Shown one piece after another: positions 8,087 to 30,810 of a DNA stretch of 30,810 bases. Below the pieces are notes generated by a model. It was given only the letters and a program-made list of their open reading frames with translations, searched no databases and had not been told where the DNA came from. This DNA comes from a virus. How positions within the stretch are numbered: the first letter of the stretch is position 1; each line of letters starts with the position of its first letter. The stretch spans positions 1-30,810 of the IMG/VR virus record IMGVR_UViG_3300042564_000308; one strand, written 5' to 3'. Position numbers and translations under genes: made by a program.

Positions 8087-8091
8087 ATTAT

Positions 8092-8514: not shown

Positions 8515-11500
8515 CTTTTAAATTGTTGTACAACAAATGTTCTGTTATTAAATGCAAATGGTTGAACCATCAAACCACCAATTGGGTTTTTCGTAGTAAT
8601 TGCTTCAAATGATACTGTTACAGCTCCAGATGGAATAATTACTCCCGAAGAAAATTGGCTTCCTCTTAAATTAATAGTCTCGGTAGTTCCATCACTTTTA
8701 AACCATTTTATATAAAATGCACAAGTATCATTTACATTAACACCATCATCATCACTAGCCCCAGATTGAACTAAACTAGCAAAGGCTTGGGCAAGCCATT
8801 GAGAAACTGTTCCAGCGCTTGTTGTTGTTAAGCTAGCAAGCGTATAAAAGGTATCATAAGAATTAAGATATATAGTGTTTGTATCTAAAGATTGTGATAC
8901 TAATGATACAGCATTAGTATTAATATTACCTGTAGCAACTACGTTACCGTTAAGGTACATAGCACTACCATTGTAAGTAATATTAGTAGAATTATTACCT
9001 AAAGCAAATGTACCATCACTATTAATTCTAGCACCTGAGCCAGTCATGCTAGTCCCAGATATTGCTGGAGACGTACCTACTTGAAGGTTATTAGACCAAA
9101 TAGTTCCTGCAGCAATCTTTTCTGCTGTAATAGCTTCTGAGCTAATCTTGATAGCTGTAATAGCGTTAGTAGCTATCTTGTCTGCAACAATAGCACCTGC
9201 TGCAATCTTAACTGCAACAACAGAGTTAGCCGCAATAGCGTCTGCAGTAACTGAGTCTGCAGCTAGCTTAACTGCTGTAATGGCACCAGCCTCAATCTTA
9301 TTTGCTGTAATAGCATTAGCGGCAATCTTGTCTGCTGTTACTGCATCAGCATTAATCTTAGCCGCTGTAACAGCGTTAGCATTAATCTTATCAGCGGTAA
9401 CAGCATTGGCAATAATTTTATCAGCAGTAACTGCGTTAGCCGCAATGTTAACTGCGATAACAGCATCAGCCGCAATCTTACCCGCAGTAATAGCACCCGC
9501 ATTAATCTTAACAGCAGTAACTGCGTTAGCCGCTATCTTGTCTGCGGTAACTGCGTCTGCATTAATTTTAATTGCGGTAATCGCATCAGCTGCAATCTTA
9601 TTTGCTGTAATAGCGTCTGCCGCTATCTTGTCCGCAGTAACTGCGTCTGCACTAATCTTAGCGGCAGTAATAGCCCCTGCATTAATCTTATCTACTGTAA
9701 CTGCATTAGCACTGATCTTATCTGCAGTGACTGCGTCTGCCGCAATCTTAACAGCTGTAATTGCATTAGCTTCTATGGTAGCTGCAGTAACCGCATTAGC
9801 GGCAATCTTACCAGCAACAACTGCATTGGCTGCAATAGTAGATGCGGTAACTGCGTCTGCGGCAATCTTACCTGCTACAACAGCCCCTGCTTCAATAGTA
9901 GTTGCTGTAACAGCATTAGCCGCAATCTTACCTGCTACAACAGCGTTAGCCGCTATCTTATCAGCAACAACAGCATTAGCAGAAATCTTATCTGCAACAA
10001 TTGCATTAGCAATAATCTTATCGGATGTTACAGCATTACTACCAATCTTAGTTTCAGTAATAGCGCCTGATCCCACCTTAGCTTCTGTAACTGCTCCAGC
10101 CGCAAGCTTTAAATCGTTTACCGCATCGTTAACTAGTTGTGCAGTATTAACAGTTCCTGAATTAAGGTTACCTGTTGCAGCACTAATAGCCGCAATGTTA
10201 GTCTTAGTAGCTGTAACAGCTCCAGCAGCAATCTTGAGATCGCTTACTGCGTTATTAACTAATTGTGCTGTATCAACAGTACCTGAGTTAAGGTTACCAG
10301 TCAAAGCGCTTATAGCAGCAAGATTAGTTTTTGCAGCTGTAACGGCATTAGCCGCTATCTTAGCTTCAGTTACTGCACCAGCAACTAAATTAGCCGCATT
10401 AACAGTGTCTGCTTTAAGGTTGCCTGTTGTAGCATTAAGAGCCGCAATATCTGTTTTAGCGGCTGTGATAGCACCATCTAGAATTTTTAAACTAGAAACA
10501 GCATTGTTAACAATTTGATCAGTACCTACTGTACCACTGTTAAGACCGCCTGTTAAAGAGCTTATAGCGGCAATATCCGTTTTAGCCGCAGTGACTGCGT
10601 TAGCCGCTATTTTAGCGCTTGTAATCGCATTAGCAACAATATTAGCAGAGGCTACTGTATCAGCTTTAAGGTTACCAAGAGTGTTATCTAAAGCGGCAAG
10701 GTTAGTCTTTGCAGCTGTAACTGCTCCATCAAGAATTTTTAAATTACTTACGGCATTATTAACAATTTGTGCTGTGCTAACTGTATCAGGGTTAAGATAA
10801 CCTGTTAATGGGCTTAAAGCAGCTAATTCTGTTTTAGCGGCTGTAATAGCTCCATCAAGAACCTTAAGAGATGTAACAGCCCCATCAGCTATTTTAACTG
10901 TTGTAACAGCATTGTTATTTATTTTATCTGTTGTAACAGCATTGTTAACAATATTACCATTAGCAACAATATTACCATTAAGAGTTAACACAGTACCATT
11001 AAACGCAACGTTGGTGGTAGGATTACCTAGAACAAAATTACCATTAGAATACAAGTGTGTACCTGAACCAGTCATTGTTGTACCACTAAGCAGTGGTGAT
11101 GACCCAACAATAATTTCACCTGAGGTTAATGTACCCATATTAGCTGTAAGAGCCGCAAGGTTTGCTACAGTAATTTTGTCTGCTGTAACTGCTCCAGCCG
11201 CAATCTTATCAGAGATAACAGCACCAGCTTCAATCTTAACAGACGTAATAGCTTGGGCCGCAATAGCTTGAGCACCAATAGTAAATGCCGCAATGTTAGC
11301 GCCTGTAATAGTATTAGCAAAAATCTTGTCGCCTGTAATTGTACCTGCTGCAATGTCTGCGGCAACGATAGTTCCTGCTGCAATTTTACCTGCCACAACT
11401 GAGTTAGCGGCAATAGCATTGGATGTTACGGAGTCAGCCGCAAGCTTATTAGCAACAATAGACCCAGCCGCAATAGTGTTTGTTGTTACTGCGTCTGCGG

Positions 11501-12542
11501 CAATCTTACCCGCTACAACTGCATTAGCACTGATCTTATCTGATGTGATAGCATTAGCCGCAATTTTATCTGCAACAACAGCATTGGTGGCAATCTTGTC
11601 TGCTATAACAGCATTAGCAACAATCTTAGGTGATGTGATAGAATCAGAAGCAATCTTTGTTTCTGTAATAGCTGCTGTAGCAATCTTAACTTCTGTAATT
11701 GCATTGGCAACAATGTTAGCCGCATTTACTGTGTCAGCCTTAAGATTACCTAAAGTAGTATCTAATGCAGCAAGAGAAGCTTTGTTAGCTGTAATAGCAC
11801 CATCAAGTACTTTTAAATTAGTTACAGCATTATTCACAATCTGTGCAGTATCTACTGTATCTGGATTAAGATAACCAGTAAGGGGGCTAAGAGCCGCCAC
11901 ATTGGTTTTAGCCGCAGTAACTGCACCGTCAAGTAACTTTAAATTAGTTACAGCATTAGTTGCAATTTGAGCCGCAGATACTGTGTTAGGTCTTAAGTCT
12001 CCAAAGGCTTGATCAAGAGCCGCTACGTTAATCTTTGTAGCTGTAACTGCATTGGCGGCAATCTTAAGCTCGGTGACTGCATTATTCATAATCTCATTAA
12101 AAGAGATTGTAGATGGAGGAACAACAATATCTAAGTCAATAGCATTACCATCATCCTGTTTCCAATGATAGTCTGGAGCAGAAGTATTAACAGCAAATTT
12201 AATCTTTCTACCACCAAGAATAAGGTAATATAAAAAATTAATAGTACCAAATGGAAAGATAGACTTGTACCAAGTATAGTCTGCTGGATTAGTTGACTCA
12301 GTAGATGTGCTACTATTATAGATACCAAAGTAAAGCTTAAGAGTAGGTGTATTAGAAAAACCTGTGCCTACATTGTCATCAGCATATTTAACATGGATAT
12401 ACTGGTAAGTATAAGAACCCGGATCTCCAGCTGGGAGATCAGGATTTGGCTCAGTACCACCAGACAACCCATCAATATTTAAACTTAAATCAAACAAATA
12501 AGCATCAAGCTCTTTATCCCCTGTAATAGGTGGATTAAACAT
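8511..12542 (-). CDS. Giant repeat-built tail fibre/tail protein with duplicated architecture
   Basis: This 1343-residue protein starts at ATG 12542, two bases after the preceding stop, behind a perfect AGGAGG. Residues 1-150 form a unique N-terminal domain rich in Tyr, Gly and Pro, presumably the virion anchor. Then come three 42-residue units (xAALxxxTGxLxxDTVxxAQIV...AVT.K), an array of 10-residue units (A-[DNG]-A-[VI]-T-A-x-K-I-x) and a cap module containing SGTTMTGSGTH (about 465-530). The same order then repeats with six 42-residue units, about 32 ten-residue units and a second cap with SGTSMTGSGAR (about 1140-1215). A unique C-terminal domain of about 130 residues ends VVQQFKR and is probably the receptor-facing tip. 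The 10-residue period would suit a beta-solenoid or a stacked trimeric shaft. Related Ala/Thr/Ile repeats occur in the C-terminal parts of phage host-specificity proteins. No enzymatic motif was seen. Confidence 0.8.
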   Translation of the reverse strand: MFNPPITGDKELDAYLFDLSLNIDGLSGGTEPNPDLPAGDPGSYTYQYIHVKYADDNVGTGFSNTPTLKLYFGIYNSSTSTESTNPADYTWYKSIFPFGTINFLYYLILGGRKIKFAVNTSAPDYHWKQDDGNAIDLDIVVPPSTISFNEIMNNAVTELKIAANAVTATKINVAALDQAFGDLRPNTVSAAQIATNAVTNLKLLDGAVTAAKTNVAALSPLTGYLNPDTVDTAQIVNNAVTNLKVLDGAITANKASLAALDTTLGNLKADTVNAANIVANAITEVKIATAAITETKIASDSITSPKIVANAVIADKIATNAVVADKIAANAITSDKISANAVVAGKIAADAVTTNTIAAGSIVANKLAADSVTSNAIAANSVVAGKIAAGTIVAADIAAGTITGDKIFANTITGANIAAFTIGAQAIAAQAITSVKIEAGAVISDKIAAGAVTADKITVANLAALTANMGTLTSGEIIVGSSPLLSGTTMTGSGTHLYSNGNFVLGNPTTNVAFNGTVLTLNGNIVANGNIVNNAVTTDKINNNAVTTVKIADGAVTSLKVLDGAITAAKTELAALSPLTGYLNPDTVSTAQIVNNAVSNLKILDGAVTAAKTNLAALDNTLGNLKADTVASANIVANAITSAKIAANAVTAAKTDIAAISSLTGGLNSGTVGTDQIVNNAVSSLKILDGAITAAKTDIAALNATTGNLKADTVNAANLVAGAVTEAKIAANAVTAAKTNLAAISALTGNLNSGTVDTAQLVNNAVSDLKIAAGAVTATKTNIAAISAATGNLNSGTVNTAQLVNDAVNDLKLAAGAVTEAKVGSGAITETKIGSNAVTSDKIIANAIVADKISANAVVADKIAANAVVAGKIAANAVTATTIEAGAVVAGKIAADAVTASTIAANAVVAGKIAANAVTAATIEANAITAVKIAADAVTADKISANAVTVDKINAGAITAAKISADAVTADKIAADAITANKIAADAITAIKINADAVTADKIAANAVTAVKINAGAITAGKIAADAVIAVNIAANAVTADKIIANAVTADKINANAVTAAKINADAVTADKIAANAITANKIEAGAITAVKLAADSVTADAIAANSVVAVKIAAGAIVADKIATNAITAIKISSEAITAEKIAAGTIWSNNLQVGTSPAISGTSMTGSGARINSDGTFALGNNSTNITYNGSAMYLNGNVVATGNINTNAVSLVSQSLDTNTIYLNSYDTFYTLASLTTTSAGTVSQWLAQAFASLVQSGASDDDGVNVNDTCAFYIKWFKSDGTTETINLRGSQFSSGVIIPSGAVTVSFEAITTKNPIGGLMVQPFAFNNRTFVVQQFKR
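8910..9119 (-). repeat. Cap module, second copy
   Basis: This stretch encodes a non-repetitive beta-rich module with the order VGTSPAISGTSMTGSGARI, then GTFALGN, NITYNGSAMYLNGNVVATGNI. It closely matches the module encoded at about 10940-11160, so it is one of two copies. Each copy ends one round of the repeat architecture. Confidence 0.75.
9120..10079 (-). repeat. Array of about 32 tandem 30-base units (10-residue protein repeat), second copy
   Basis: Units of exactly 30 bases run for about 960 bases with no insertion or deletion; each encodes A-x-A-[VI]-T-A-x-K-I-x. The phase is kept so strictly that the same codons align every 30 bases. Third positions vary (for example gcg/gca/gct), so selection for protein sequence, not recent copying alone, keeps the repeat. 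Confidence 0.85.
10083..10838 (-). repeat. Six 126-base units (42-residue protein repeat), second copy
   Basis: Six consecutive 42-residue units share the frame [TA]x[LI]AA[LI]xxxTGxLxxxTVxxxx[LI]V followed by a half that resembles two 10-residue units (...AVxxxKIxxGAVTAxK). Boundaries are approximate, read from the translated sequence. Confidence 0.78.
10940..11160 (-). repeat. Cap module, first copy
   Basis: It encodes VGSSPLLSGTTMTGSGTHL, then GNFVLGN, NVAFNGTVLTLNGNIVANGNI, the counterpart of the module at about 8910-9119. Here it lies in the middle of the protein, between the first 10-residue array and the second set of 42-residue units. Confidence 0.75.
11179..11718 (-). repeat. Array of about 18 tandem 30-base units, first copy
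   Basis: The same 10-residue unit as in 9120-10079, again with exact 30-base phasing. A repeated 'caatctta' segment ends at 11208 and again at 11688, 16 units apart. Confidence 0.82.
11660..12037 (-). repeat. Three 126-base units (42-residue protein repeat), first copy
   Basis: Three 42-residue units open the repeat region, beginning around INVAALDQAFGDLRPNTV. They are half the number found in the second copy (10083-10838). The right-hand boundary with the 10-residue array is approximate. Confidence 0.72.
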
Positions 12543-12544
12543 TA

Positions 12545-14068
12545 TTACCTCCTGTCTGCTGGTCTAACATCAAACGATATCATTGGTAGTCTCCAATAAT
12601 CTGTTGATGTAATATATAAGTTCATTACACGACCATTAACTCTTGGGTCTACCTTGTAGCCCTGTGATTTTTGATTATTAGGTAGGAATGTAAATACATC
12701 CTCTGCGGTATATGTTGGTTCGTCAATATAATTGTTTTGACCACGTACTTTAATACTGATACTTGCTGTTGAAGATACTTTATCAAACACAGGATATATC
12801 GAGTTAATAATAGAACTAGCTGTTAAGTCACCTGTATTAATTTTCTTTGATACATAAGAGTCATATGGAACAAAGGTAGTACCATTGTACATAAGATAAG
12901 CATCATTAGTAATTAATGTTTGTGTGCTGGTAGTTGTAAACAACAACTCTTGTTTAGCATAAACAAAAGTACTATTTAAATTTTGTGGAGCATTAAACGC
13001 ATATGTAACGCTAGCTAATTGTCTCTTTGTCCATGTATTATTTTTATAATTAAAGATAAGAGCTTCGTTACATACTGTAGAAGATCCTTTAGGATAGTTA
13101 ATCCAGATTTCTTTATAGAATGGATTACGTACTACGTGTACCTTACTGATTTGTGCTTTATTTAAATTATTAAAGAAATACTTTTTAATTCTAAAGTCAG
13201 CAATAGATTCAATATTACCTGAACCATTGTGAATATAAATATCATTACGATCTACAACAAAATGGTTACCGTCAAACTCGCATACACAATCTGTACCGAG
13301 GATACCATAAGACTTTGAATAAGGAGTTACTTTAGATATTGTTCCAATGGACAATATATTAATACTGTCTTCAGAATAAATAAACATGTTACCTCTAAGG
13401 TCAAGCATATCTAATACTTGGGAAGTAGAGCTTAATTCAAACTCATCAGCTGTGTCTGTTGTAGTTCCGGGTTGCCATACTTGAGGGATATTACCTGTAG
13501 GTGCTTGAACAGACACACGTACTGTTCCGGGAGCATAGGTTACAATACCGTCTTGTGTTAAAGTTAAGTTAGCTGCAACAAGAGAATAATTAAATGATCT
13601 AATAACTCGAGCTGTTACAGTAAGACCCGCAACATAGTTCCATCCAGGAAGTGGTTGAAAGGTTGATCCTGCTGAAGGACTACCATACAGACAGTACAAA
13701 GGTGTTGTCTGACCATTGTTTACAATAATAGCAAAGCCACCGTTAAATTGTGTACCTTGCCAATCACTGTTGTCATACACTACGTCTGCTGAAGTAAACA
13801 TATTTGATGTATTACCAGCAGCATCTACTCGAACGATAGCTCCATTCTTAGCAAAGATATTATAACCTTGATCAGGTCTTTTCCAGTGAATACCATAGTT
13901 AGGAGCAATAGCTACAGTCCTGTATGCTGCTTCTCCAGTAATTGTTTGTACTGCATTATCATCAAACCGAACATTGAGTACATCAGAAAAAACATTAGGA
14001 GGAACAATTAAAGGGGATAGGTCTGTGTTGAGACCTCCCTTACCTAGGTCTGTAATTGGTGTTGCCAT
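12545..14068 (-). CDS. Tail nozzle / stabilisation-like virion protein
   Basis: This 507-residue protein starts at ATG 14068 (MATPITDLGKGGLNTDLSPL) behind AAGGATATCTT. The opening 'GGLNTDLSPLIVPPNVFSDVLNVRF' style of sequence (Gly-Leu-Asn-Thr-Asp, then Pro-rich, then a strand with Asn-Val-Arg-Phe) is typical of the beta-rich podovirus proteins that close the tail (nozzle, or P22 stabilisation-protein type). The whole protein is rich in beta-forming residues with repeated short blades such as GFAIIVNNGQTTPLY, NMFIYSEDSINILS, NHFVVDRNDIYIHNGSG and EIWINYPKGSSTVCNEALIF in form, suggesting a beta-propeller. There are no membrane segments. Its position after the lysis cassette and before the second fibre fits a distal tail part that the fibre attaches to. 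Exact homology to T7 gp12 or P22 gp10 is not claimed. Confidence 0.65.
   Translation of the reverse strand: MATPITDLGKGGLNTDLSPLIVPPNVFSDVLNVRFDDNAVQTITGEAAYRTVAIAPNYGIHWKRPDQGYNIFAKNGAIVRVDAAGNTSNMFTSADVVYDNSDWQGTQFNGGFAIIVNNGQTTPLYCLYGSPSAGSTFQPLPGWNYVAGLTVTARVIRSFNYSLVAANLTLTQDGIVTYAPGTVRVSVQAPTGNIPQVWQPGTTTDTADEFELSSTSQVLDMLDLRGNMFIYSEDSINILSIGTISKVTPYSKSYGILGTDCVCEFDGNHFVVDRNDIYIHNGSGNIESIADFRIKKYFFNNLNKAQISKVHVVRNPFYKEIWINYPKGSSTVCNEALIFNYKNNTWTKRQLASVTYAFNAPQNLNSTFVYAKQELLFTTTSTQTLITNDAYLMYNGTTFVPYDSYVSKKINTGDLTASSIINSIYPVFDKVSSTASISIKVRGQNNYIDEPTYTAEDVFTFLPNNQKSQGYKVDPRVNGRVMNLYITSTDYWRLPMISFDVRPADRR
12548..12553 (-). promoter_or_regulatory. Perfect AGGAGG ribosome-binding site of the giant repeat fibre
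   Basis: AGGAGG lies five bases before ATG 12542 and sits inside the last codons of the upstream gene. It is one of only two full-consensus sites noticed here, suggesting high translation of this fibre. Confidence 0.75.
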
Positions 14069-17230: not shown

Positions 17231-20200
17231 TTATTCCTTAATCAATTTTGTAATAAGTAACTCTAATTTATCTACTTTTGCTTTTAAACTTAGAACTTCT
17301 TGGTCTTGCTCTTTAATAGCCTCAACAAGAACTGAAACAATTTTTGAATAGTCTAAAGATTTTGTTTCTTTAGAATCTTCTTTTCCCGGTTCGCATGTAC
17401 TTGAAGTTAGAACTAATTCAGGGAAAACTAATTCGACTTCTTGTGCTATCATACCAACTGAAAGAGTACCTGTTTCTTTCCAGTTAAAATAAACACCTCT
17501 TAGTCTTTTAACTTTTTCTAAAGGATTATCTATTAGCTTGATATTAGTTTTTAATCTAACGTCAGAGTACGCAGTAATATTGTTTCTTGCAGTTAAATTA
17601 CCAGCCATATCTAGAAATAGATTTCTATTCCAAGCAGAACCATCAACGCCACCACTATTGCCGCCATACCAGTTAATTGTTTGATCCATGGCATGGTGTA
17701 CTAACCAATAAGAGCCAACATCAGTATTTCTTAAGCAATAAGATGGGTAGTTTCCTCTAATCGTAAATTGTTCAGAAACACCAAATGGGTTGTTATTCCA
17801 AGTACCTCTTAATATTTGGTATCTATATGAGCTACCACTAGATGGGTCAGCGTAAAAAGCAGTGTCATTAGCATCGTAAAAAATTGGCGCTCGCATATCA
17901 CCATTAGACTGCCAAATGCCATTATTTAAAATCCAACCTGAAGTATAAGCTGAACTAAAATCACTACCGCCAACACCCCTACGAAACACCCAGCCACGAC
18001 CAACGCTGTCCATTGTTAAGTAGGTGTTATAGCCATCTCCCTGACCTGTTGGATTTGGGAAATTACCACCATTATTTTTAAAACCAATTGCAGAAGTTGT
18101 AGTATTACCAGCACTCCAAAAGAAAATTTGATTTGAAGTGTCGGTAGGGCTTTGATCTCCTCGAATAGCAACACCGTAAAGTGATGATATGCCCTCGGGA
18201 TCAACGTAAAAGTTAGTATTGTTGCTGTCGTAGAAGATTGGTGCTCTCCACGACCCAGAGGCAGTACCATTACCGTTAGCATTTAAAGTGTAAGGTTCAG
18301 CACCGTTTGAATTCCTAAATGTAAATACACCATCACTTGTATTTTGAAAATACAGGTTACCAGAATGCCACTGGATCTTGTTCATTTCACCAGTCCAAGT
18401 AGTGTGATTACCTTGAATAGCTCCACCAATCCTTAATGATACTCCACTACTAGATGGATCTAAATAATAAGTTGTGTCGTTGCTATCATAGAAAATTGGT
18501 GCTCTAAAGGAAGGATTAGTACCACTTACTTGTGCAATTCCAGTGTCGTATGCAACGGAGAAAAAAGTATCAAAAGAAGTTGCTACTGCTTCATTTGTAG
18601 TAAAACGCCAGCTCCAACCATTTCCACTATTATTTGTTGTAATTCTATAAGTAAGAAAACCACCAGTATCTGCAACAGTAAAACCACCTTGTCCTCCAGA
18701 AGCCGCATAAACACGAACAGTACCGTTACCAAGATCAGCATAACCAGCTGTGTTACCACTGTCGTAAAAGATTGGTGTACGAACATCCGTAGCAACAGTC
18801 ATATTGCCGCCAGTGCTTATAGTAGTTCTTAGCGAAGCAGTGCCAGCTGGTACAAACTCAATTGGCCCAGGATCATTCCAAAGATACAAACTTTGATTGC
18901 TAACACTATTTCCAGTAGTTCTGTTTTTAATTAAATATCCATTGCCACCACCAGATTGGTTTAAATGAAGATACGCATAAGTTCCACCAGAATCTGTGTT
19001 TTCTATTGTTTGATAAACCGCACCACCACTTCCCCTTTGAAGATTTACACTTGCATTTGAAGTCCATGCGCCTATATTGGTAGCACCATTTGGGTCTACA
19101 TAAAACGCAGTGTTGTTACTGTCGTAAAAGATTGGTGCACGGTAACTATTATTTGCTTGGGAAAAAGTTGAATTTTCATAAATTATTCCTCGAGCATTTT
19201 CAATTATCGTGTCGCCAAGACTGTGTCGAATATTAAACTGTGCAGGATTTCCAGCAGACTGATTGAAAGACTGAAGAATATAGCCTGAATCGTTTTTATA
19301 GCTATAAATTGGTCCGTAAATGTCTATGTGACTTCTAAAATTAGTAAACGCAACATTTAATGTGTTTATATACGAATTACTATTAGGGTCTACATAAAAT
19401 GCTGTGTCATTACTATCATAAAAGATTGGTGCACGGAAAGAGGCAGTAGCAAAGATTGGAGTTGTTCCCCAACCTAAGTCACGACCCATCTCTATATAAT
19501 TACTTCCACCACCCCAAAATACAAATGGTGATGCAAGCCTATTCGCAGAATCATGTATAACAAATTCCCAATTATCAGCACAGTTTGCAAGTATACCACC
19601 ATTCATACTAGTTGACCAACCACTTGTATAATGGTAATTAGTACCAACATTTCCTAATGCTAAAGAACCTACTTGCATACCCGAAGAATAATCAACGTTA
19701 CCTATAGCTAATTTCGAAAATCTGCTAATATTGTGGGGATCCACATAAAAACTAGTGTCGGTGCTGTCGTAAAAGATTGTGGCACGAATATCAGTGTCGC
19801 TTCTAAAACTTGAATTAGTACCAAACCAAGTAGAATTGTTGTTTATATAGTTGTTGTTTGAGCCTAAATACAGTGCATTACCCATTCTAAAGTTTACGGC
19901 AGTAACCGTATCCATATTAGAAATACCTGCTGGGTCTGTATAAAATCCAGTGTTATTGCTGTCGTAAAAAATAGGTGCTCGGTAATCTCCACTAGTTGTA
20001 TAAGTACCTGTACCGCTTCCTTTGTTTGTCAAGTTTGCAAAATCTACTGATCCTGCTGAACCAGCACTATCAGCGACCCTTGCGGAATCTACTCGAACAC
20101 CATAGGTATTTGCACCGTTCCAACCCATTAATGTTGGGTATGTTCCAGTCCAATTATTTTGTGGGTTGGTGTTGCTACAAGCACCTCCGCTTGGTGTTGT

Positions 20201-23200
20201 GCTAGCTGAAGCATCAAAAATAACGTGGCTGTTGCTGTAGTTTTTCCATCCAAGCATACCAACAACATTGTTAATAACACCAGTGCTGTTCCAATTTCCT
20301 TGCGTACTTGTTAGTAATACTGCGCTACCACTAATATTAATACCCCAAGTTCCAGACGCTCCAGATCCTGTTAAAGATGGTGAGTAGCTTGTATAGTTAC
20401 CCGCATGAAGAACTTGGTTACCATTTTGGGTTATTGCACTAATAGCGTTAAATGCGCCAGCATCTGTTAAAATAGCAACAGTTGTAGAGTCTGCTTGATT
20501 ACGCCAAAGAAATCCGTTGGTGTTGGTATACATGTAAGTATAACCAGAGTTACCAGCAAACAACTTTGCACCACTTACAGTGTTGTATACAGTACCAAGA
20601 AAATTAATGCCTCCAGACATTGTCCCACCCGCTAAAGGTAAATAATTTGGGGCTGAAGTAGCAGTAGCCGCCAACGTAGCCGTAGCAGCATTACCTGTTA
20701 TGTTAATACCCCAAGTACCAGAAGCACCACCACCTGTTAGGGTTGGAGCGTACGAGTTGTAGTTACCTGCGGTAAGTACTTGATTGCCGCTAGCGGTGAC
20801 GGAACCATCTGCCCAAACACGGAGTAAACTAACCGCCCCAGTTCTGTACACACCCCACGATGGAATAGTTCCTGTTGATCCATAATCTTCATACGAGGGG
20901 ATATGTACTGTTAGTATGCGATCAGCGATTGCTGCCCCTCGGCCATAAAACCAATAATTGTTAGCGTTGCTAGTGCCTGCGTTTGTATCTGGGAAAGAGA
21001 TTCCACCCCATTGTTGCGTATTATTAGGAGATACTCGGATTGCACCTGCGTAAGAATCTGCTTCAGCGGATGCAGTAGTAACCAATCGTCCGGTTAACGT
21101 ACCGCCAGCTAAAAGCAAATAAGGACTTAACGCAGCACTAGTGATATACCCGCTAGGATTACTAGAATTATAAGGCGTATATCCTAATGCAGTAGTAACC
21201 ATTCCAGAGGTAATACCTGAAATATAACCGCTAGGGTTAGTAGCATTATATGGAGTAAATCCAAGAGCAGTAGTTACATTTGAACTAGTAATGCCTGTAA
21301 TATATCCATTAGGATTAGTAGCATTATAAGGAGTAAACCCTAGAGCAGTAGTTACGTCAGAAGAATTAAGAGTAATAGCTCCTGTGCGTGTGTTAAAACT
21401 TGTTACACCACCAACAATATTAATTACACCAGTAGCAGAATCATAAGATCCAGCACCTGTAACCGAAATTGCAGAACGAGCACCAGCAGTAGTAATATAA
21501 TTACTTGGATTAGTAGCATTATATGGTGTATAACCAAGAGCAGTAGTAACCATTCCAGAAGTAATTCCAGAAATATATCCTGCAGGATTACTTGTGTTAT
21601 ATCCGTCAGTAATGCCATAACCAGATAGTGTTGTAGGCTTACCTGTAACACCACTAAATGGAACAGATGCAGCACTAGCTACTGACAAAGTAGATTGAGG
21701 AGTTTTAGTCCATAAACCAGTTGAGCTAACATAAACTAATGTATCACCGTTTGTAGGTGACTGAGCAGACACATCGTGTAACTCATCCATTTCATAACCG
21801 TTTTGAATCTTAACTTCAATAGTACCTTGGTTAGCATGACTACGTGTAACTACACCTACATAAACTAAATGCAAAGGTGCATAAGGTTTTGTACTTGTGT
21901 ATGCACCTGCTGTAGCTCCACTAAGATATAATTGGGCACCTTCTGCAAAAGTAGAAGTATCTAAACCGCTTACAACACCAATAACAACTACATAACCATT
22001 TTGGTTGTTGCTAATATCAGCTTGAACCATACCATAAGTTTGTGCTGAGGTAGCGTCACCTGTAGCAAGTGCTTTTGAAACAAGAGCTTTACTCCCATTA
22101 GCTCCAGTAATATACACTAATGTACCTTTAGTAAGAGTAGCGCCCGTTTGGTTACGCACTTGGCTAATCAATGTAGCAGTACTACCTGCAATACCTACGC
22201 TTAAGTCTCTAGATGTACCTGTTGTTGTAATAACAACGCTACCATCATTAGATGTAATAGCGCTTACTGCATTATCAGCTAAAGTACCTTGAGCAGCAGT
22301 CGCATAAGCTGTGCTGTTAGTTGTAGCCGCAGTACCAAGACCAAGGTTAGCCCTTGCTGATACAACGTTAGATACGTCATTAAGGTTATTAACTGCAAGC
22401 AAAGCACCAGCCAAAGAAGCATAAGCCTCCAGCCATGTAGTACCTGAATAAACCTTCATTGCGTTAGTAGTTGTATTAAAATACAATGCACCAGTTACAA
22501 GAGGATTACCATCGTTATCTGTTGTTGGATCTGTTGCTTTCTCACCAAGATATTTATCATCAAAGTTATCAAAAGCCGCTAATGCTTGATCACGAGCCGC
22601 TTCTGCAGCTGCTTGGGCTGTTGCCGCAGATGTTGCGCTTGTTGTAGCATTAGTCGCAGATGTACCTGCAGAAGTAGCAGATGCGGCAGCATTGGTAGCA
22701 GATGTACCAGCAGATGTTGCACTAGTAGCCGCACTAGTAGCTGAGTTAGCCGCATTAGTAGCAGATGTACCCGCAGATGTAGACGAGTTAGCCGCATTAG
22801 TAGCACTCGTAGAAGCGTTATTCGCTTGTGTTGTAGCTGTTGTTGCACTACTAGCAGCACTTGTAGCAGATCCTGCGGCAGATGTAGCACTGGTTGCAGC
22901 ATTAGTTGCTTGCGTAGTAGCTGTTGCGGCAGATGTACTTGCTGAATTTTCGCTAGCTAAAGCATTAGCCGCACTTGTAGCCGCTTCACTTGCTTTAGTA
23001 GTTGCTGTTGATGCTGAACCACTGGCAGATGTTGCTGAAGCTGCTGCATTAGTAGCGGATGTTCCAGCAGCAGTCTCTGATGTAGCCGCATTAGTAGCGC
23101 TTGATGCCGCATTAGCCGCTGAAGTACTTGCTTCAGAAGCTTTAGTAGTAGCGGTTGTTGCAGATGTTGCGGCAGAAGTAGCACTAGTAGCCGCCTCAGA

Positions 23201-24442
23201 AGCTTTAGTCGTTGCTGTAGTAGCCGATGTAGCCGCCTCACCCGCTTTAGTTGTAGCTGTTGCAGCAGATGTAGATGCGCTAGTCGCTGAAGTACTTGCA
23301 GAAGACGCACTGGATGCTGCATTAGTAGCACTAGTAGAAGCACTCGTAGCAGATCCTGCAGCATCAGTCGCAGATGTACTAGCAGCTATTGCCGATGTAG
23401 CGGCATTTGTAGCAGATGTACTAGCCGCAGTTGCGCTTGTTGAAGCACTGTCAGCACTCACAACAGCTTCAGCCGCTTTAGTTGTAGCAGTAGATGCACT
23501 TCCAGAAGCTGATGTAGCTGATGTTGCGGCAGAAGTTGCGCTTGACGCTGCATTAGTAGCCTGTGTTGTGGCTGTAGTAGCGGATACAGCAGCTTCGTTA
23601 GCTTTAGTTGTTGCTGTTGATGCGCTTGCAGCTGCATTAGTCGCAGATGTATTAGCGGCAGAAGCACTTGTAGCCGCATTAGATGCGGAAGTTCCTGCTG
23701 AGGTAGCACTACCAGCAGCATTAGTTGCAGAGGTAGCCGCATTAGTAGCTTGTGTTGTTGCAGTAGCCGCACTTGTAGCGGCAGAGCTTGCAGAAGCACT
23801 TGCCTCTGAAGCTTTAGTTGTTGCTGTTGAAGCACTTGATGCGGCATTTGTAGCCGAAGTAACTGCTTCACTAGCTTTGGTTGTTGCGGTAGACGCTGAG
23901 TTAGCGGCACTTGTAGCAGACGCACTTGCGGCTGTAGCTTGAGTGGTTGCTGTAGTAGCGCTAGTAGCGGCACTTGTTGCGCTTGTAGCGGCTTCAACTG
24001 CTTTAGTTGTTGCTGTAGTTGCTGAAGTGCTTGCAGATGTTGCGCTATTAGCGGCATTAGTTGCACTTGTTCCAGCGGCAGTTGCGCTATTAGCGGCACT
24101 AGTAGCACTACCTGCAGCATCAGTTGCGGAAGCTTCAGCTTCTTCTACTGCATTACCAATTTGTTCAAGAGACTGAGCCGCTTCTGCTGCACTTAAAGCA
24201 GCCTCACCAGCACTTTGTGCGGCAAGATTAGTATAACTAAGCGAGTCAGCCGTATCTAAATTATCATATTCACCACCAGCAGACAAATTACCGGTAGCAC
24301 CTGGATTTACTTGATAACCACCCTCCCCATCACTTCCATCATATTGAATAGGGTATGAAGAAATACCTGACGAACCATCGTCATTGTATTCTCCACCAAC
24401 TGAAGGGGTAGTAGTACTACCCGGTTTTTCTTCGTATGCCAT
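17231..24442 (-). CDS. Giant S74-capped tail fibre (2403 residues)
   Basis: The gene starts at ATG 24442 with CAGGGAG upstream. Residues 1-75 are an acidic Gly/Ser/Tyr-rich head. Residues 75-625 are a heptad stalk of Ala, Ser and Thr (SATNAAT-type units). Then come a linker with KYLGEKATDPTTDNDGNPL (about 633-651) and a beta domain with RNQTGATLTKGTLVYITG, continuing to YEMDELHDV (about 760-890). Residues about 940-1106 carry four TTALG[YF]TPYN..NP units, and about 1484-2204 carry eight APIFYDSN.T.FY.DP units. The last 111 residues are an intramolecular chaperone of the S74 peptidase family, starting SDVRLKTNI at S2293, with a terminal coiled coil. The family cleaves itself at that Ser after trimerisation, leaving the mature fibre. 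The tip sequences before S74 should bind the receptor. The head is not T7 gp17-like, so attachment to the tail is unclear. Confidence 0.88.
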   Translation of the reverse strand: MAYEEKPGSTTTPSVGGEYNDDGSSGISSYPIQYDGSDGEGGYQVNPGATGNLSAGGEYDNLDTADSLSYTNLAAQSAGEAALSAAEAAQSLEQIGNAVEEAEASATDAAGSATSAANSATAAGTSATNAANSATSASTSATTATTKAVEAATSATSAATSATTATTQATAASASATSAANSASTATTKASEAVTSATNAASSASTATTKASEASASASSAATSAATATTQATNAATSATNAAGSATSAGTSASNAATSASAANTSATNAAASASTATTKANEAAVSATTATTQATNAASSATSAATSATSASGSASTATTKAAEAVVSADSASTSATAASTSATNAATSAIAASTSATDAAGSATSASTSATNAASSASSASTSATSASTSAATATTKAGEAATSATTATTKASEAATSATSAATSATTATTKASEASTSAANAASSATNAATSETAAGTSATNAAASATSASGSASTATTKASEAATSAANALASENSASTSAATATTQATNAATSATSAAGSATSAASSATTATTQANNASTSATNAANSSTSAGTSATNAANSATSAATSATSAGTSATNAAASATSAGTSATNATTSATSAATAQAAAEAARDQALAAFDNFDDKYLGEKATDPTTDNDGNPLVTGALYFNTTTNAMKVYSGTTWLEAYASLAGALLAVNNLNDVSNVVSARANLGLGTAATTNSTAYATAAQGTLADNAVSAITSNDGSVVITTTGTSRDLSVGIAGSTATLISQVRNQTGATLTKGTLVYITGANGSKALVSKALATGDATSAQTYGMVQADISNNQNGYVVVIGVVSGLDTSTFAEGAQLYLSGATAGAYTSTKPYAPLHLVYVGVVTRSHANQGTIEVKIQNGYEMDELHDVSAQSPTNGDTLVYVSSTGLWTKTPQSTLSVASAASVPFSGVTGKPTTLSGYGITDGYNTSNPAGYISGITSGMVTTALGYTPYNATNPSNYITTAGARSAISVTGAGSYDSATGVINIVGGVTSFNTRTGAITLNSSDVTTALGFTPYNATNPNGYITGITSSNVTTALGFTPYNATNPSGYISGITSGMVTTALGYTPYNSSNPSGYITSAALSPYLLLAGGTLTGRLVTTASAEADSYAGAIRVSPNNTQQWGGISFPDTNAGTSNANNYWFYGRGAAIADRILTVHIPSYEDYGSTGTIPSWGVYRTGAVSLLRVWADGSVTASGNQVLTAGNYNSYAPTLTGGGASGTWGINITGNAATATLAATATSAPNYLPLAGGTMSGGINFLGTVYNTVSGAKLFAGNSGYTYMYTNTNGFLWRNQADSTTVAILTDAGAFNAISAITQNGNQVLHAGNYTSYSPSLTGSGASGTWGINISGSAVLLTSTQGNWNSTGVINNVVGMLGWKNYSNSHVIFDASASTTPSGGACSNTNPQNNWTGTYPTLMGWNGANTYGVRVDSARVADSAGSAGSVDFANLTNKGSGTGTYTTSGDYRAPIFYDSNNTGFYTDPAGISNMDTVTAVNFRMGNALYLGSNNNYINNNSTWFGTNSSFRSDTDIRATIFYDSTDTSFYVDPHNISRFSKLAIGNVDYSSGMQVGSLALGNVGTNYHYTSGWSTSMNGGILANCADNWEFVIHDSANRLASPFVFWGGGSNYIEMGRDLGWGTTPIFATASFRAPIFYDSNDTAFYVDPNSNSYINTLNVAFTNFRSHIDIYGPIYSYKNDSGYILQSFNQSAGNPAQFNIRHSLGDTIIENARGIIYENSTFSQANNSYRAPIFYDSNNTAFYVDPNGATNIGAWTSNASVNLQRGSGGAVYQTIENTDSGGTYAYLHLNQSGGGNGYLIKNRTTGNSVSNQSLYLWNDPGPIEFVPAGTASLRTTISTGGNMTVATDVRTPIFYDSGNTAGYADLGNGTVRVYAASGGQGGFTVADTGGFLTYRITTNNSGNGWSWRFTTNEAVATSFDTFFSVAYDTGIAQVSGTNPSFRAPIFYDSNDTTYYLDPSSSGVSLRIGGAIQGNHTTWTGEMNKIQWHSGNLYFQNTSDGVFTFRNSNGAEPYTLNANGNGTASGSWRAPIFYDSNNTNFYVDPEGISSLYGVAIRGDQSPTDTSNQIFFWSAGNTTTSAIGFKNNGGNFPNPTGQGDGYNTYLTMDSVGRGWVFRRGVGGSDFSSAYTSGWILNNGIWQSNGDMRAPIFYDANDTAFYADPSSGSSYRYQILRGTWNNNPFGVSEQFTIRGNYPSYCLRNTDVGSYWLVHHAMDQTINWYGGNSGGVDGSAWNRNLFLDMAGNLTARNNITAYSDVRLKTNIKLIDNPLEKVKRLRGVYFNWKETGTLSVGMIAQEVELVFPELVLTSSTCEPGKEDSKETKSLDYSKIVSVLVEAIKEQDQEVLSLKAKVDKLELLITKLIKE
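17234..17566 (-). other. S74 self-cleaving chaperone tail of the giant fibre
   Basis: This segment encodes S2293-E2403. The conserved SDxRLKxNI start and GMIAQEVELVFPELV core are visible. In this family the Ser and the Lys of 'LK' form the catalytic dyad (S2293 and K2298 here), and the chain is cut just before the Ser. The closing helix (EVLSLKAKVDKLELLITKLI) would trimerise the chaperone. Confidence 0.82.
17830..19990 (-). repeat. Eight APIFYDSN repeats in the fibre
   Basis: Eight degenerate copies of [YFWIMV]R[AT][PT]IFYD[SA]xxTxxYxD[PL], spaced about 60-120 residues apart, lie before the chaperone. Each precedes a variable beta segment. One copy is weakened (FYDSGNTAGYADL). They look like repeated docking strands of a trimeric beta-fibre. 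Confidence 0.82.
21130..21620 (-). repeat. Four TTALG[YF]TPYN repeats in the fibre
   Basis: Four copies, mostly about 32 residues apart but with a longer interval after the first, of TTALG[YF]TPYN[AS][TS]NP then [GN]YIT/S are encoded here, followed upstream in coordinate by LLLAGGTLTGRL. A fifth, partial copy reads YGITDGYNTSNPAGYISG. The motif is common in phage fibre shafts. Confidence 0.8.
22580..24215 (-). repeat. Ala/Ser/Thr heptad stalk region
   Basis: About 1.6 kb encodes SAT.A.. seven-residue units (21 bases) with interspersed ATTKA/ATTQA variants. Ala occupies the coiled-coil core positions. Three-base periodicity and biased codon use keep all frames on both strands nearly stop-free. 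Confidence 0.85.
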
Positions 24443-24454
24443 TCTTACTCCCTG

Positions 24455-25366
24455 TTATATCAGACCATTGGTATTAAAGTTAATTTGAACGTTACCACCA
24501 GATGCTCTACGGAATTTTTCTTCACTGTTAACAGAGGAAATATTTTCTAGGAATTTGCCTTGATATCTTTGTTCCATCTTTTCATCGAACAAATAGGCTC
24601 CTAGATTATATAACGCTCCCCAGATTAACATTCTTTCATTTTGATCTCTTAACCAGTTAGGTACTTCTTTTCCTGTATACATTTTTGTTGTAACAGGTGT
24701 GTTGTATGCTGTAGCCGCTTCGATAGTAGAGAAGCATTTTGTTATACCATCTTTGGTTGAAAAGTAAAGATTAGTACCGCCAGACGCTACCAATTCAAGA
24801 TAAGGTTGGTTAGCATCAGACAAACTAATAATATAATTAATAGGTGAAACGTTATACACTGCATTCAAAGCAGGTAGTCGTTTATAATAATGTATCTCTA
24901 CAATAGCACCAACAGCTAATTGTGGGTGAATATATATTTTGTTCTTTTCCCACATCCAGTTGTATACTGAGTACTTCTCACTATACAAGTCAAAGAAAGT
25001 ACGTTTATCAGTTACTTCATTAAATACCTTACTTACATTAGATGGGAAGGTAGAGTATGAAGTACCAATATTATCTTGTGCAATAGTTCTGATATACACA
25101 AATTGTGTTAAATCTTCTGGAATATAGAATGATGTATAGGCATTACCATAAGGTAATCCTGCACTGTTTTCCCCTAAATTATCATCAGCAGTAACCGTAT
25201 AACGTACTACTTCTTCTAATGGAGGAATTCTTAATAGTCGATAGCATTCATCGGCAGAATAATCTAAGCAATCTTCAATTACGCTATCAGGTATAGTATT
25301 TACTTCGGGTTTGTTTGACCAGTCCCGTACCTTATCTACGAGTGCGTCATATCGGGGTGTTGCCAT
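24455..25366 (-). CDS. SU10-type tail adaptor protein
   Basis: This 303-residue protein starts at ATG 25366 with CAGGAG upstream. It has a helical N terminus (YDALVDKVRDWSNKPEVNTI; DCLDYSADECYRLLRIPPLE), a beta-rich middle with a strand/loop containing FYIPEDLTQFVYIRTI, and a C-terminal helix reading NERMLIWGALYNLGAYLFDE followed by LENISSVNSEEKFRRASGGN. This pattern is that of the SU10-type phage adaptor family, functionally equivalent to the T7 gp11 tail tube that joins portal and nozzle. It lies between the head genes and the first fibre, as expected for a connector. It would form a 12-fold ring under the portal. Length is typical. Confidence 0.78.
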   Translation of the reverse strand: MATPRYDALVDKVRDWSNKPEVNTIPDSVIEDCLDYSADECYRLLRIPPLEEVVRYTVTADDNLGENSAGLPYGNAYTSFYIPEDLTQFVYIRTIAQDNIGTSYSTFPSNVSKVFNEVTDKRTFFDLYSEKYSVYNWMWEKNKIYIHPQLAVGAIVEIHYYKRLPALNAVYNVSPINYIISLSDANQPYLELVASGGTNLYFSTKDGITKCFSTIEAATAYNTPVTTKMYTGKEVPNWLRDQNERMLIWGALYNLGAYLFDEKMEQRYQGKFLENISSVNSEEKFRRASGGNVQINFNTNGLI

Positions 25367-26088: not shown

Positions 26089-27204
26089 TTAAGCGCCAGA
26101 CAAACCAAAGATCATACCGCAACCCTTAGGATTACGGCACTCAAGTGTACCCTCTTCAACGATCTGACCGATGATAGAGTCACCCAGCTGACCAAGGTCA
26201 ACTTCTTGCAGAGGACGCAAGCTAGCGTAGCTGAACCACATTGGGTCATACACGAATGCTGTAAAGTTAGCAACATCGTTAACACCAGTAACGGCAGTAT
26301 TAGAAATACCCATTACGTAGTTAGGAACAACCATGATGTCACCGAAGTCAGACATATAGATCTCGACAGACTGACGGAGCTTGCCATCAGCATCGATATT
26401 TCTACGGACGTTACCGTCACCAGCGTTAGAAGTGGTAGAACCTGCAGACTGAGCCTTAGCAGAGAACACACGACGGTTAGCAGGGGACAACATCAACTTA
26501 GTGGCTTTACCACCGTTTTCATAGATGCCTTGCATAACTGTGTCAACGTGTGACAGAGCCAAAGAGACTTTATCAGCAGAAGTAACACCAGAGAAAGTAC
26601 CGCAAACACCGCCACCTGGATTGGTAGGAGCAGTGTACTCGCCAGGAGTGGTCAACACGTTCAATGCTGTAGCAGGAGTTGTGGTAGCAGCAGTGTAGTT
26701 GATCCAAGACTGATAGCCACCGAAAGTACGGGTGCCAGAGCCGTTAGAAGACTTCCAACCGTTTACCAAGTCAAACTCAACGTCCCTGCGCAACTCGGTA
26801 CCACGCTTTTTGAGCTGGTAAGCGTATTCGTCAGCAACACCTGCTTGGTCAACAGCACGCTTAGTGCCAGTAACTGTAACAGTCTTAGAGTTAATTTGTG
26901 TGTAATTACCCAAACGTGTACGGAAGGGTTCAGCAGCTTGAGCTGCATTTTGTGTAGCGTATGATACGCCTTCAGCAACAGGAGCAGAAGTTGGGGGTGC
27001 CAACTCGTCTGTTTGCCACTCGTGGAACACAGCAGTAGCTTTAGTCTTGCCGATAGACGACAAGAAAGGTGTCTCATCACGAGAAATCATTGAAATAAAA
27101 TTTGCCAAGTCTTCACGCTCACCAGCGTTGACGGCATTACCAGTAGCAGCAGCGCTACGTGCGGCAGCCTTAGGGCCACCTGTTGCAAAAGTTTGTCCAG
27201 CCAT
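26089..27204 (-). CDS. Major capsid protein, SU10 type
   Basis: This 371-residue protein starts at ATG 27204 with AAAAGGAAA upstream. Residues 25-75 read GEREDLANFISMISRDETPF, then LSSIGKTKATAVFHEWQTDE, the signature of the SU10 major capsid family (formerly DUF5309; HK97 fold). Further family-like segments are TRLGNYTQINSKTVTVTGTK, RGTELRRDVEFDLVNGWKSS, NGGKATKLMLSPANRRVFSA and a C-terminal YDPMWFSYASLRPLQEVDLG. The protein would form the icosahedral shell. It follows the scaffold and is followed by a terminator, so it can be expressed to high level. Codon use is noticeably more G/C-rich at third positions than in the neighbours, common for highly expressed capsid genes. Confidence 0.9.
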   Translation of the reverse strand: MAGQTFATGGPKAAARSAAATGNAVNAGEREDLANFISMISRDETPFLSSIGKTKATAVFHEWQTDELAPPTSAPVAEGVSYATQNAAQAAEPFRTRLGNYTQINSKTVTVTGTKRAVDQAGVADEYAYQLKKRGTELRRDVEFDLVNGWKSSNGSGTRTFGGYQSWINYTAATTTPATALNVLTTPGEYTAPTNPGGGVCGTFSGVTSADKVSLALSHVDTVMQGIYENGGKATKLMLSPANRRVFSAKAQSAGSTTSNAGDGNVRRNIDADGKLRQSVEIYMSDFGDIMVVPNYVMGISNTAVTGVNDVANFTAFVYDPMWFSYASLRPLQEVDLGQLGDSIIGQIVEEGTLECRNPKGCGMIFGLSGA

Positions 27205-29031: not shown

Positions 29032-30810
29032 TTACATCATTGGGTTTTCACCAGCAGCCGCAGGACCAGCCTGTGGTTGTGGCTCTTGACTGCCTTGAGG
29101 TTTACTTGCATCATTATGCGAGTCAGCATCGATGAAAGCCTTAGCCATAGCAAGGAGTTCTTTAACATCAGGCTTAGGAGGTAGTTCAACACCTTCTTTA
29201 GCCGCCTGAATATAAAGCTTACTCCACTCTTGATAACTCTTATCCAAAGAAACCATAAGTTGTTTGGTGTTATCTTGCATGGCATTTTTAGCTTGTACAT
29301 TAGTAAGGTCAAGTGTAGCTTGCCTTTGTGCTATGTCAATCATCTTAACTTGTTCTTCAAGTTGTCTTTGTTTCTCTGCAGCTTGCATTTCAGCTTCTCT
29401 TGACTTCTGAGCTTGTTCAATGAACTTAGGATCAGTGTAGTCAACAAGGAAGTCTAAAGGATCAAGATCCATAGACTCAATAGCTTTGCATGCAATATTT
29501 ACTGCTGCTTGCGGATTAACAGCTCCACCAGCTCCTGCTTGTTGCAGTGCTGGAATAATCTGTTGTCCCACAGTATTCATCTTCTTCATGATATTGCTGT
29601 TACTGTTTTCACCAACATCAACATCAACATAAAGCATCAGGTTACTTGGTAGTGTGCCTGGATCAATAGATTTAAACAAGTCATTCTGATCATAGTATCC
29701 AACTTCTTGACCACGGAGTTTATCCCGCATTGTCTTGTAGATACCCTCACACAAACGCTTAAAGCCTGTTTCAGCAAACCTACGTGCCATAAACTGGATA
29801 CGTACTTGTGCCGCAGACATAGCTCTCTGCATCTTTTCTTCTGAATTACCTGATACATATAGTGTATCATTCAAACCCTGAGCCGCCTTAGACAAACCAG
29901 TAGCTTGTTCTTTATGTAGTTGTAACAACTCAAGAACAGGTACAGTACCAGTACTAATAGTGTCTGGTGTTAGTGCAGCTACAGCTCCGTTAGGGTTACC
30001 ATTAGTTGCAATAATCTGCTTAGGCTTCATGTTTTGTAGAGCACTAAAGTCTACAACATTAGGGTCAGCAAGCTTAGGAGAATAGTTAGTTAAGTAAACA
30101 TTCTCAATAAAACCCCGCATAATAGCGGTTGAGGCAAGGGTTGTCGGGCGAATCATATCAGCCACAGACAAACCGAAGAACTCGTGAGGAACTTCAAAGG
30201 GACAAAGAGTCGCCAATGGAATCATATCACAGTCTTCTTCAAGAAGAATTGTTGAACCAGCAATAATAAAGTGCTTAAGTTCAGCAATACCGTCTCCATC
30301 ACGGTCTACACGTAACCAACACTCGATAACAGTGAGTTGTCGATTAGCTTCAGACGGGAATAACTCCCGTGAATTTCCCCCAAGCCAGTACTCTTCACCA
30401 ACCAGACGCTTACGAGCAGCTTGCTCTTCGGTGTACTTGGTAGCCCAATCGTAGCTACCGTCTCCAATGGCGTCCCAGTCAATATTCTCTGCTATGTCAG
30501 GGAAAAACTTTCTAACTTCAGAACGAGTCATATCGATCTGAATACCCACAAATGCAGCATCATCAAGTGAGTGCGCATCCCGTGTAATACGGAAACATTC
30601 TGGGTGTACGTTCTTAATTAAGACTCGTGTCTTATTATGTTTTCTTTGTAGACGAACATTCTTGTATACCATCTTGTAGACAGCATTACCTTCTTCGTCT
30701 GTATCTAATTCTTGTTCATATTGTAGATCACCAATGATCTCTACATTATCTTCAGCTAACAAAAGATCCAGATTCTCTTGGCTGATAGAGTCAAACTCTT
30801 CAAACTGATA
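29032..30810 (-). CDS. Portal protein, P22 type, N terminus beyond the window
   Basis: The frame is open to the right edge, with 592 residues visible. The first internal start-like codon at 30762 is a TTG inside the frame, and sense codons continue upstream (YQFEEFDSISQENL), so the true start is outside. Family-like segments are VRLQRKHNKTRVLIKNVHPE, IPLATLCPFEVPHEFFGLSV and ADMIRPTTLASTAIMRGFIE, then SEEKMQRAMSAAQVRIQFMA and RRFAETGFKRLCEGIYKTMR, followed by a long C-terminal helix rich in Gln/Lys/Ala and a disordered Gln/Pro end. These fit the P22-type portal family. The protein would form the 12-fold ring for DNA packaging and exit. A terminase gene is expected just beyond the right edge. 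Confidence 0.85.
   Translation of the reverse strand, partial: YQFEEFDSISQENLDLLLAEDNVEIIGDLQYEQELDTDEEGNAVYKMVYKNVRLQRKHNKTRVLIKNVHPECFRITRDAHSLDDAAFVGIQIDMTRSEVRKFFPDIAENIDWDAIGDGSYDWATKYTEEQAARKRLVGEEYWLGGNSRELFPSEANRQLTVIECWLRVDRDGDGIAELKHFIIAGSTILLEEDCDMIPLATLCPFEVPHEFFGLSVADMIRPTTLASTAIMRGFIENVYLTNYSPKLADPNVVDFSALQNMKPKQIIATNGNPNGAVAALTPDTISTGTVPVLELLQLHKEQATGLSKAAQGLNDTLYVSGNSEEKMQRAMSAAQVRIQFMARRFAETGFKRLCEGIYKTMRDKLRGQEVGYYDQNDLFKSIDPGTLPSNLMLYVDVDVGENSNSNIMKKMNTVGQQIIPALQQAGAGGAVNPQAAVNIACKAIESMDLDPLDFLVDYTDPKFIEQAQKSREAEMQAAEKQRQLEEQVKMIDIAQRQATLDLTNVQAKNAMQDNTKQLMVSLDKSYQEWSKLYIQAAKEGVELPPKPDVKELLAMAKAFIDADSHNDASKPQGSQEPQPQAGPAAAGENPMM

Follow-up and report, generated by a model that had tools for sequence, protein, structure and literature searches.

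A putative modular S74 long tail fibre in an SU10-related virus and sequence traces of exchange of its IFYDS-bounded cassettes

The window, meaning the whole stretch of DNA that was analysed, is a 30,810-base virus record. It encodes an SU10-type portal protein (29032..30810, running off the window; PF23899, E 3e-97), major capsid protein (MCP; 26089..27204; PF17236, E 5e-75) and adaptor (24455..25366; PF24175, E 1.4e-8), all on the minus strand and each above its Pfam cut-off. The adaptor is the predicted docking site of a long tail fibre protein, fibre A. Gene order is portal, scaffold, MCP, adaptor, long fibre, lysis genes, nozzle and a second fibre, fibre B. Judged by the capsid protein, the closest named phage is Roseobacter phage CRP-7 (51%), which the available text of PMC6918029 presents as a short-tailed podovirus by electron microscopy. 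CRP-7 gp51, directly behind the adaptor, has a heptad stalk, a joint domain and an S74 domain as in fibre A, and gp42, directly behind the nozzle, is a protein with KIAA-type repeats. The original prediction that the virus is a podovirus is thus well supported by the SU10 families, the capsid likeness to CRP-7 and the matching fibre and nozzle loci of that phage. Together the two fibre genes occupy 36.5% of the window ((7212+4032)/30810), which bears out the estimate that more than one third of it codes for fibres. Downstream of the tail genes, 2851-5886 encodes a protein of 1011 aa in which an endolysin-type domain was recognized (phrog_315); it probably takes part in ejection and has an activity like that of lysozyme.

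Fibre A is a 2403-aa ORF (17231..24442) on the minus strand, as are all of its parts. It starts with ATG 12 nt behind the adaptor stop codon and matches PHROG tail fibre families. The N-terminal dock region (aa 1-62, 24257..24442) was delimited by alignment, and its dock motif is present in 52/52 relatives. The dock peptide, GYxxxPGxTGxxSxGGEYDN, occurs twice in fibre A, at aa 1-21 and 42-62; a regular expression found the same duplication in 11/52 relatives besides the window. An Ala/Ser/Thr heptad stalk follows at aa ~71-616 (22595..24232), recognized by lag-7 autocorrelation (z 15) and present in 47/52 relatives. Its Ala+Ser+Thr content is 82-88% per 100-residue block from aa 101 to 600, and residue identity at lags 7, 14, 21 and 28 lies 15-20 s.d. 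over shuffles of the same residues. Next comes a joint domain with the pattern FDNFDDKYLG...GALYFNTT...W (aa 624-670, 22433..22573), which is common to CRP-7 gp51; FxDxYLG was found in 43/52 relatives. The beta-type domain at aa 728-945 (21608..22261) has tblastn matches in named phages, for example Pseudomonas phage Rollin (42%). Four TPYN units span aa 969-1111 (21110..21538), with TPYN at aa 972, 1037, 1063 and 1089.

The distal part contains an array of eight IFYDS motifs separated by unrelated inserts (aa 1487-2292, 17567..19984), identified by motif scan and insert comparison. IFYD occurs at aa 1491, 1556, 1673, 1771, 1891, 1983, 2069 and 2187, a spacing of 65-120 aa, and a degenerate PIFYDSN-type DNA pattern gave 5 matches in the window against 0.00 expected. 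No collagen repeats were found in fibre A. The chain ends in a Peptidase_S74 intramolecular chaperone (aa 2293-2403, 17234..17566; Pfam E 7e-15) with a predicted cut at Y2292/S2293. The PF13884 match at aa 2293-2345 covers the full 58-position profile with 55.5 bits against a cut-off of 22 and is followed by a heptad-like tail. By sequence the best solved relative is 6f45 in the PDB (E 2e-5), the distal subunit of a long tail fibre. Residues S2293 and K2298 make up a Ser-Lys dyad, five residues apart, the spacing of the catalytic dyad S911/K916 of endoNF (PMC8326128); self-cleavage before S2293 is the expected reading. The heptads, beta domain, four TPYN units, eight IFYDS motifs and S74 domain that had been predicted for this one 2403-residue chain were all found. 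They comprise three repeat systems (heptads, TPYN and IFYDS) rather than the four proposed. The claim of eight IFYDS units holds for the motifs, all eight of which recur, but not for the inserts, which are unrelated, so that only the motif of about 24 aa is common.

Fibre A was then placed among its relatives. Adaptor relatives are encoded at 58 IMG/VR loci, of which 53 were examined; L051, L052, L057, L058 and L060 were dropped as partial matches or contig ends. Several loci are near-duplicates, and pairs among them are not all independent. In 52/53 loci a fibre ORF starts 13-26 nt after the adaptor stop, and the 53rd ends 73 nt past the adaptor. A fibre gene with a GG-type dock motif stands at this place in each of the 52 usable relatives. 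Forty-four of the 52 fibres are complete (193-2206 aa, median 1034.5), making fibre A the longest of 45 complete adaptor-linked fibres; an S74-like SDxRxK motif was found in 16/44. Longer IFYDS fibre ORFs, measured stop to stop, are those of L155 (3759), L132 (3280) and L164 (3118). The N-terminal profile of fibre A had no similarity to SU10 gp12 by hhalign. At the level of sequence, then, these data show the parts of fibre A, their order and its place next to the adaptor.

Fibre B belongs to a different locus. A nozzle-type protein of 507 aa (12545..14068; phrog_3287, E 3e-57) is followed by fibre B, 1343 aa (8511..12542; phrog_892), both on the minus strand. Fibre B consists of a conserved N-domain (aa 1-140), also conserved behind the nozzle in relatives, and AVTADKIAANA-type repeats. 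Thirty records, part of the 58 adaptor loci, were surveyed. The nozzle gene is present in 29/30 and a fibre B match somewhere in 26/30, in 25 of them with the conserved N-domain adjoining the nozzle. One record lacks a nozzle and one ends at it, so fibre B stands behind the nozzle in 25/28 informative relatives. G004, G007 and G009 have fibre A and no fibre B match behind the nozzle; in G004 and G007 the nozzle is directly followed by the next conserved gene. With a fibre at the adaptor in 52/52 relatives and fibre B at the nozzle in 25/28, there are two conserved fibre loci, and the three relatives that have fibre A without a neighbouring fibre B indicate that fibre B is not required in every case. 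Both fibres persist among the relatives, keeping their anchors while their distal parts vary, and fibre A is retained more constantly than fibre B. In line with the prediction of two unrelated fibres, the two genes are different, occupy separate loci and match each other only weakly, in low-complexity sequence (best E 0.013). Complete fibre B proteins range from 281 to 1908 aa (n=21, window included). In the five relatives L212-L216 the N-domain is followed by diverged copies of itself instead of KIAANA repeats. G007 (L225, G007:19800-27519) has two nozzle genes; stop codons interrupt the first, and the second is not followed by fibre B.

Searches with fibre B returned no Pfam match and no PDB sequence match. 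The N-domain alignment gave weak single-member matches in Pfam (E 0.019 or worse) and none in the PDB. An AlphaFold2 model of the N-domain (pLDDT 68) shows a beta domain and, after it, a single long helix, with pLDDT about 80-88 over aa 45-140 and about 50-55 over the helix. Foldseek comparison of this model with the PDB gave a best E of 1.4.

SU10 provides a framework for the function of two fibres. Its genes are arranged as portal (gp6), scaffold, MCP, adaptor (gp11), long fibre (gp12+gp13), lysis genes, gp16, gp17 and gp18. The available text of PMC9509320 assigns gp16 as the short fibre, gp17 as the nozzle and gp18 as the needle; the long fibres bind first, and the short fibres act later and then become part of an extended nozzle. 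The same text places the nozzle domains of gp17 between two propeller blades, with residues 303-308 in nozzle domain 4. The window resembles SU10 in its portal, MCP and adaptor families, in having a nozzle homologue and in the position of the long fibre directly behind the adaptor. It differs in that the SU10 long fibre is split into gp12 and gp13 whereas fibre A is a single gene. Furthermore, the SU10 short fibre precedes the nozzle, whereas fibre B follows it, at the position of gp18. The nozzles differ too: gp17 has 1005 aa, window residues 4-47 align with gp17 5-48 and 45-351 with 468-819, and the ~420-aa region between gp17 residues 48 and 468 that holds the inserted nozzle domains is absent from the window nozzle. 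For this reason the SU10 mechanism is not transferable as a whole. Profiles of fibre B showed no similarity to gp16 or gp18 (hhalign probability 0.1-0.5%, including the gp12 comparison).

The two giant fibres had been taken to suggest two-step adsorption or two receptor specificities. By analogy with SU10, fibre A would make the first contact and a nozzle-held fibre B the second, on another receptor, triggering ejection. The parallel gene order speaks for this proposal, as do the conserved anchors and variable C-termini of both fibres; the three relatives without fibre B behind the nozzle, the nozzle without the SU10 insert and the lack of similarity between fibre B and gp16 or gp18 speak against it. 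We regard the chances as even, and given the differences in nozzle, needle position and profiles it is a fair analogy rather than a demonstrated mechanism. Because fibre B is found where SU10 has its needle and not where it has its short fibre, the existence of two lateral fibres is unproven. Fibre B could instead be the needle or plug at the centre of the tail, with acquired adhesin repeats. Its place directly behind the nozzle and the predicted beta domain with one long helix would fit, but it has neither sequence similarity to gp18 nor a fold match, and we hold this reading to be possible at somewhat below an even chance.

A pattern scan for the IFYDS motif matched at least 120 stretches in viral contigs and 9 in genome_contigs, and these were analysed together with the adaptor loci, additional loci and the window. 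Among the matches listed, 144 distinct fibre ORFs carry one to ten motifs, with the consensus SxRAPIFYDSNNTGYYVDPASTSNL (511 copies). Inserts of 25 to 700 aa were compared, and the 499 inserts among the matches listed formed 235 single-linkage families, of which 164 had a single member. One AlphaFold2 monomer prediction of a cassette with both flanking motifs, made from 7 sequences, reached pLDDT 31.7. A protein-level search with the IFYDS region in named phages returned a sole match, Synechococcus phage DSL-LC03 (29%). Text search for the motif gave no phage paper among its hits, and it is unnamed in the titles or abstracts found on fibre shuffling or mosaicism.

An array of this kind might have grown by tandem duplication inside the fibre A gene, as ordinary repeats do. 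The motif does recur regularly, and among the matches listed inserts are homologous in 11/972 pairs within a protein against 615/123279 between proteins, the former in a few other fibres. However, pairwise comparison of the eight window inserts detected no similarity (best E 0.78), and tandem duplication was rejected as the origin of the array; we consider it very improbable.

Inserts are instead shared between proteins, where 612 homologous insert pairs were found in the 144 fibre ORFs among the matches listed. We asked how often the neighbours of a shared insert are non-homologous. Among the matches listed this was so at 281/284 testable positions for inserts of 30-50% identity, 232/246 at 50-70%, 81/109 at 70-90% and 10/53 at 90-100%. 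In the clearest case, insert 7 of the window corresponds to insert 2 of L003 (78%), insert 1 of L150 (77%) and insert 3 of L163 (74%), and also to insert 2 of L080 (67%) and insert 2 of L064 (55%). L163 has baseplate-wedge genes of the contractile-tail type, and L150 has a major head protein in PHROG 10.

The sharpness of the breaks was examined in 148 insert pairs of 60-97% identity among the matches listed; as these were chosen with both neighbours different, they are informative on the sharpness and place of the break only. Along these pairs, among the matches listed, identity rises from 15% just outside one motif to 65% within it, stands at 47% over the first 20 aa of the insert and 51% over its last 20 aa, reaches 64% in the following motif and falls to 13% past that motif. 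Of the ends of 138 whole-protein alignments among the matches listed, 46% lie no more than 20 aa from a motif, compared with 22% for random placement.

Exchange is also directly visible when individual fibres are compared. L005 comes from a close relative, most of whose aligned DNA is 95-97% identical to the window, but, short motif matches aside, its similarity to fibre A breaks off around aa 1111, within the TPYN units. The L061 record encodes tape-measure, distal-tail and major-tail proteins and represents a long-tailed phage. The SU10 MCP family was not found in it, an absence that is suggestive only since the record is a 26.8 kb fragment. The N-terminus of the L061 fibre differs from that of fibre A and the proximal parts match at 66-80% DNA identity, yet from aa 1340 to 2379 of fibre A the match reaches 94% and 88% DNA identity in two stretches. 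The sole interruption of this match is one complete IFYDS unit of 195 nt (65 codons; 19780..19974, minus strand), in frame in the window and absent from L061. Both of its ends lie inside the motif, and its flanks are 96% (300 nt) and 91% (250 nt) identical. Outside the fibre gene the window and L061 have short repeat-type matches only.

Two-gene arrangements also occur. In L003 the gene directly behind a fibre A of 1668 aa codes for another S74 fibre (1168 aa; L003:14969-18475), which lacks both dock and stalk. This second gene shares aa 728-945 of fibre A at 87% DNA identity, and its C-terminus is, by eye, close to that of the single fibre of L004. Its product may act as a partner at the distal end, or the gene may be an older tip that was displaced.

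Taken as sequence comparisons, these results show that fibres exchange the inserts bounded by IFYDS motifs and gain or lose them as whole units with breakpoints at the motif, and that the exchange crosses short-tailed and long-tailed phages. Near-identical runs on the fibres of different viruses suggest that host-recognition parts are traded block by block. We wondered what part the motif itself plays. Motif DNA is 0.57 identical between random copies among the matches listed and 0.58 between the first two copies of the window; at 57-58% shared DNA there is little for homologous recombination to act on. IFYDS might accordingly be a passive structural cap at domain boundaries, with illegitimate or random recombination and selection keeping the in-frame joints at boundaries. 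The low identity of random copies fits this idea, as does motif DNA barely better conserved than that of shared inserts (0.64 versus 0.57-0.59, among the matches listed). In contrast, the single unit by which the window and L061 differ has its breakpoints inside the motif, which also fits recombination within it, and we put the passive role at slightly less than an even chance. It is a more tentative proposal that IFYDS acts as a universal connector for fibre domains held in a common pool, from which short-tailed, long flexible-tailed and contractile-tailed phages may build their distal fibres by adding, removing or swapping whole motif-bounded cassettes.

Accounts of fibre mosaicism usually concern the exchange of entire genes, tips or modules, and fibre A adds an IFYDS-cassette form to it. 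Adhesin swapping between conserved motifs was reportedly found in T-even gp37 by Tetart in 1998; the exchange motif there is GxHxH. Both systems have short conserved motifs flanking exchangeable adhesin segments. The IFYDS fibres differ in forming an array, with up to ten joints per fibre among the matches listed, and neither GxHxH nor HxH is present in the 2403 aa of fibre A. The T5-like LtfA/LtfB proteins are comparable as S74-type fibres, the T5 LTF being listed in PMC8326128. In DT57C and DT571/2, LtfA/LtfB occur as one or two genes at one locus, with spontaneous in-frame fusion through recombination at shared repeats according to the available text of PMC4728585. The two S74 fibre genes in a row in L003, and the single gene in the window and L004, mirror these two-gene and single-gene forms. 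DT57C and DT571/2 differ in being siphoviruses with another anchor, and the available part of that report describes no IFYDS cassette array (PMC4728585). Alteromonas phages A5 and V22 likewise have fibre modules common to morphologically distinct phages, but there, in the accessible portion of PMC10579305, a whole module moves with a separate chaperone, whereas fibre A would change cassette by cassette within one S74 chain.

We consider it probable that fibre A is a modular S74 long tail fibre with IFYDS cassette joints and that fibre B is a separate, nozzle-tied protein. As the long tail fibre of a podovirus related to SU10, fibre A would, from the families named, most likely form a homotrimer and would dock on the adaptor by its N-terminal peptide. 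The Ala-rich heptads would form a coiled-coil stalk, followed by a middle part made of the FDNFDDKYLG domain, the beta domain and the TPYN units, and by a distal shaft in which IFYDS motifs may connect a series of small domains that differ from one another. The S74 domain would drive trimer folding and then cut itself off before S2293 by means of S2293/K2298. The inserts are candidate receptor-binding parts, and the motif may help recombination rather than only mark tolerated joints. Fibre B, separate and mostly conserved, is probably a tail-tip or needle-position fibre acting after fibre A.

In these fibres the unit of exchange can be delimited on the sequence itself: it mostly measures about 40-200 residues, from one copy of a 24-residue motif to the next, and one fibre pair from different phage types differs by exactly one such unit. 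If this holds, the motif offers a simple means to catalogue candidate receptor-binding domains of environmental viromes and to ask whether habitat-sharing phages with different tails share host-recognition parts. On the more tentative reading of a universal connector, one short motif would tie otherwise unrelated phages into one host-recognition exchange network.

Behind fibre B (7667-8514) are two small genes whose products resemble, by eye, proteins of acetyltransferase type and tail-fibre-assembly type. L061 carries genes of the PHROG types acetyltransferase and tail-fibre-assembly just upstream of its fibre.
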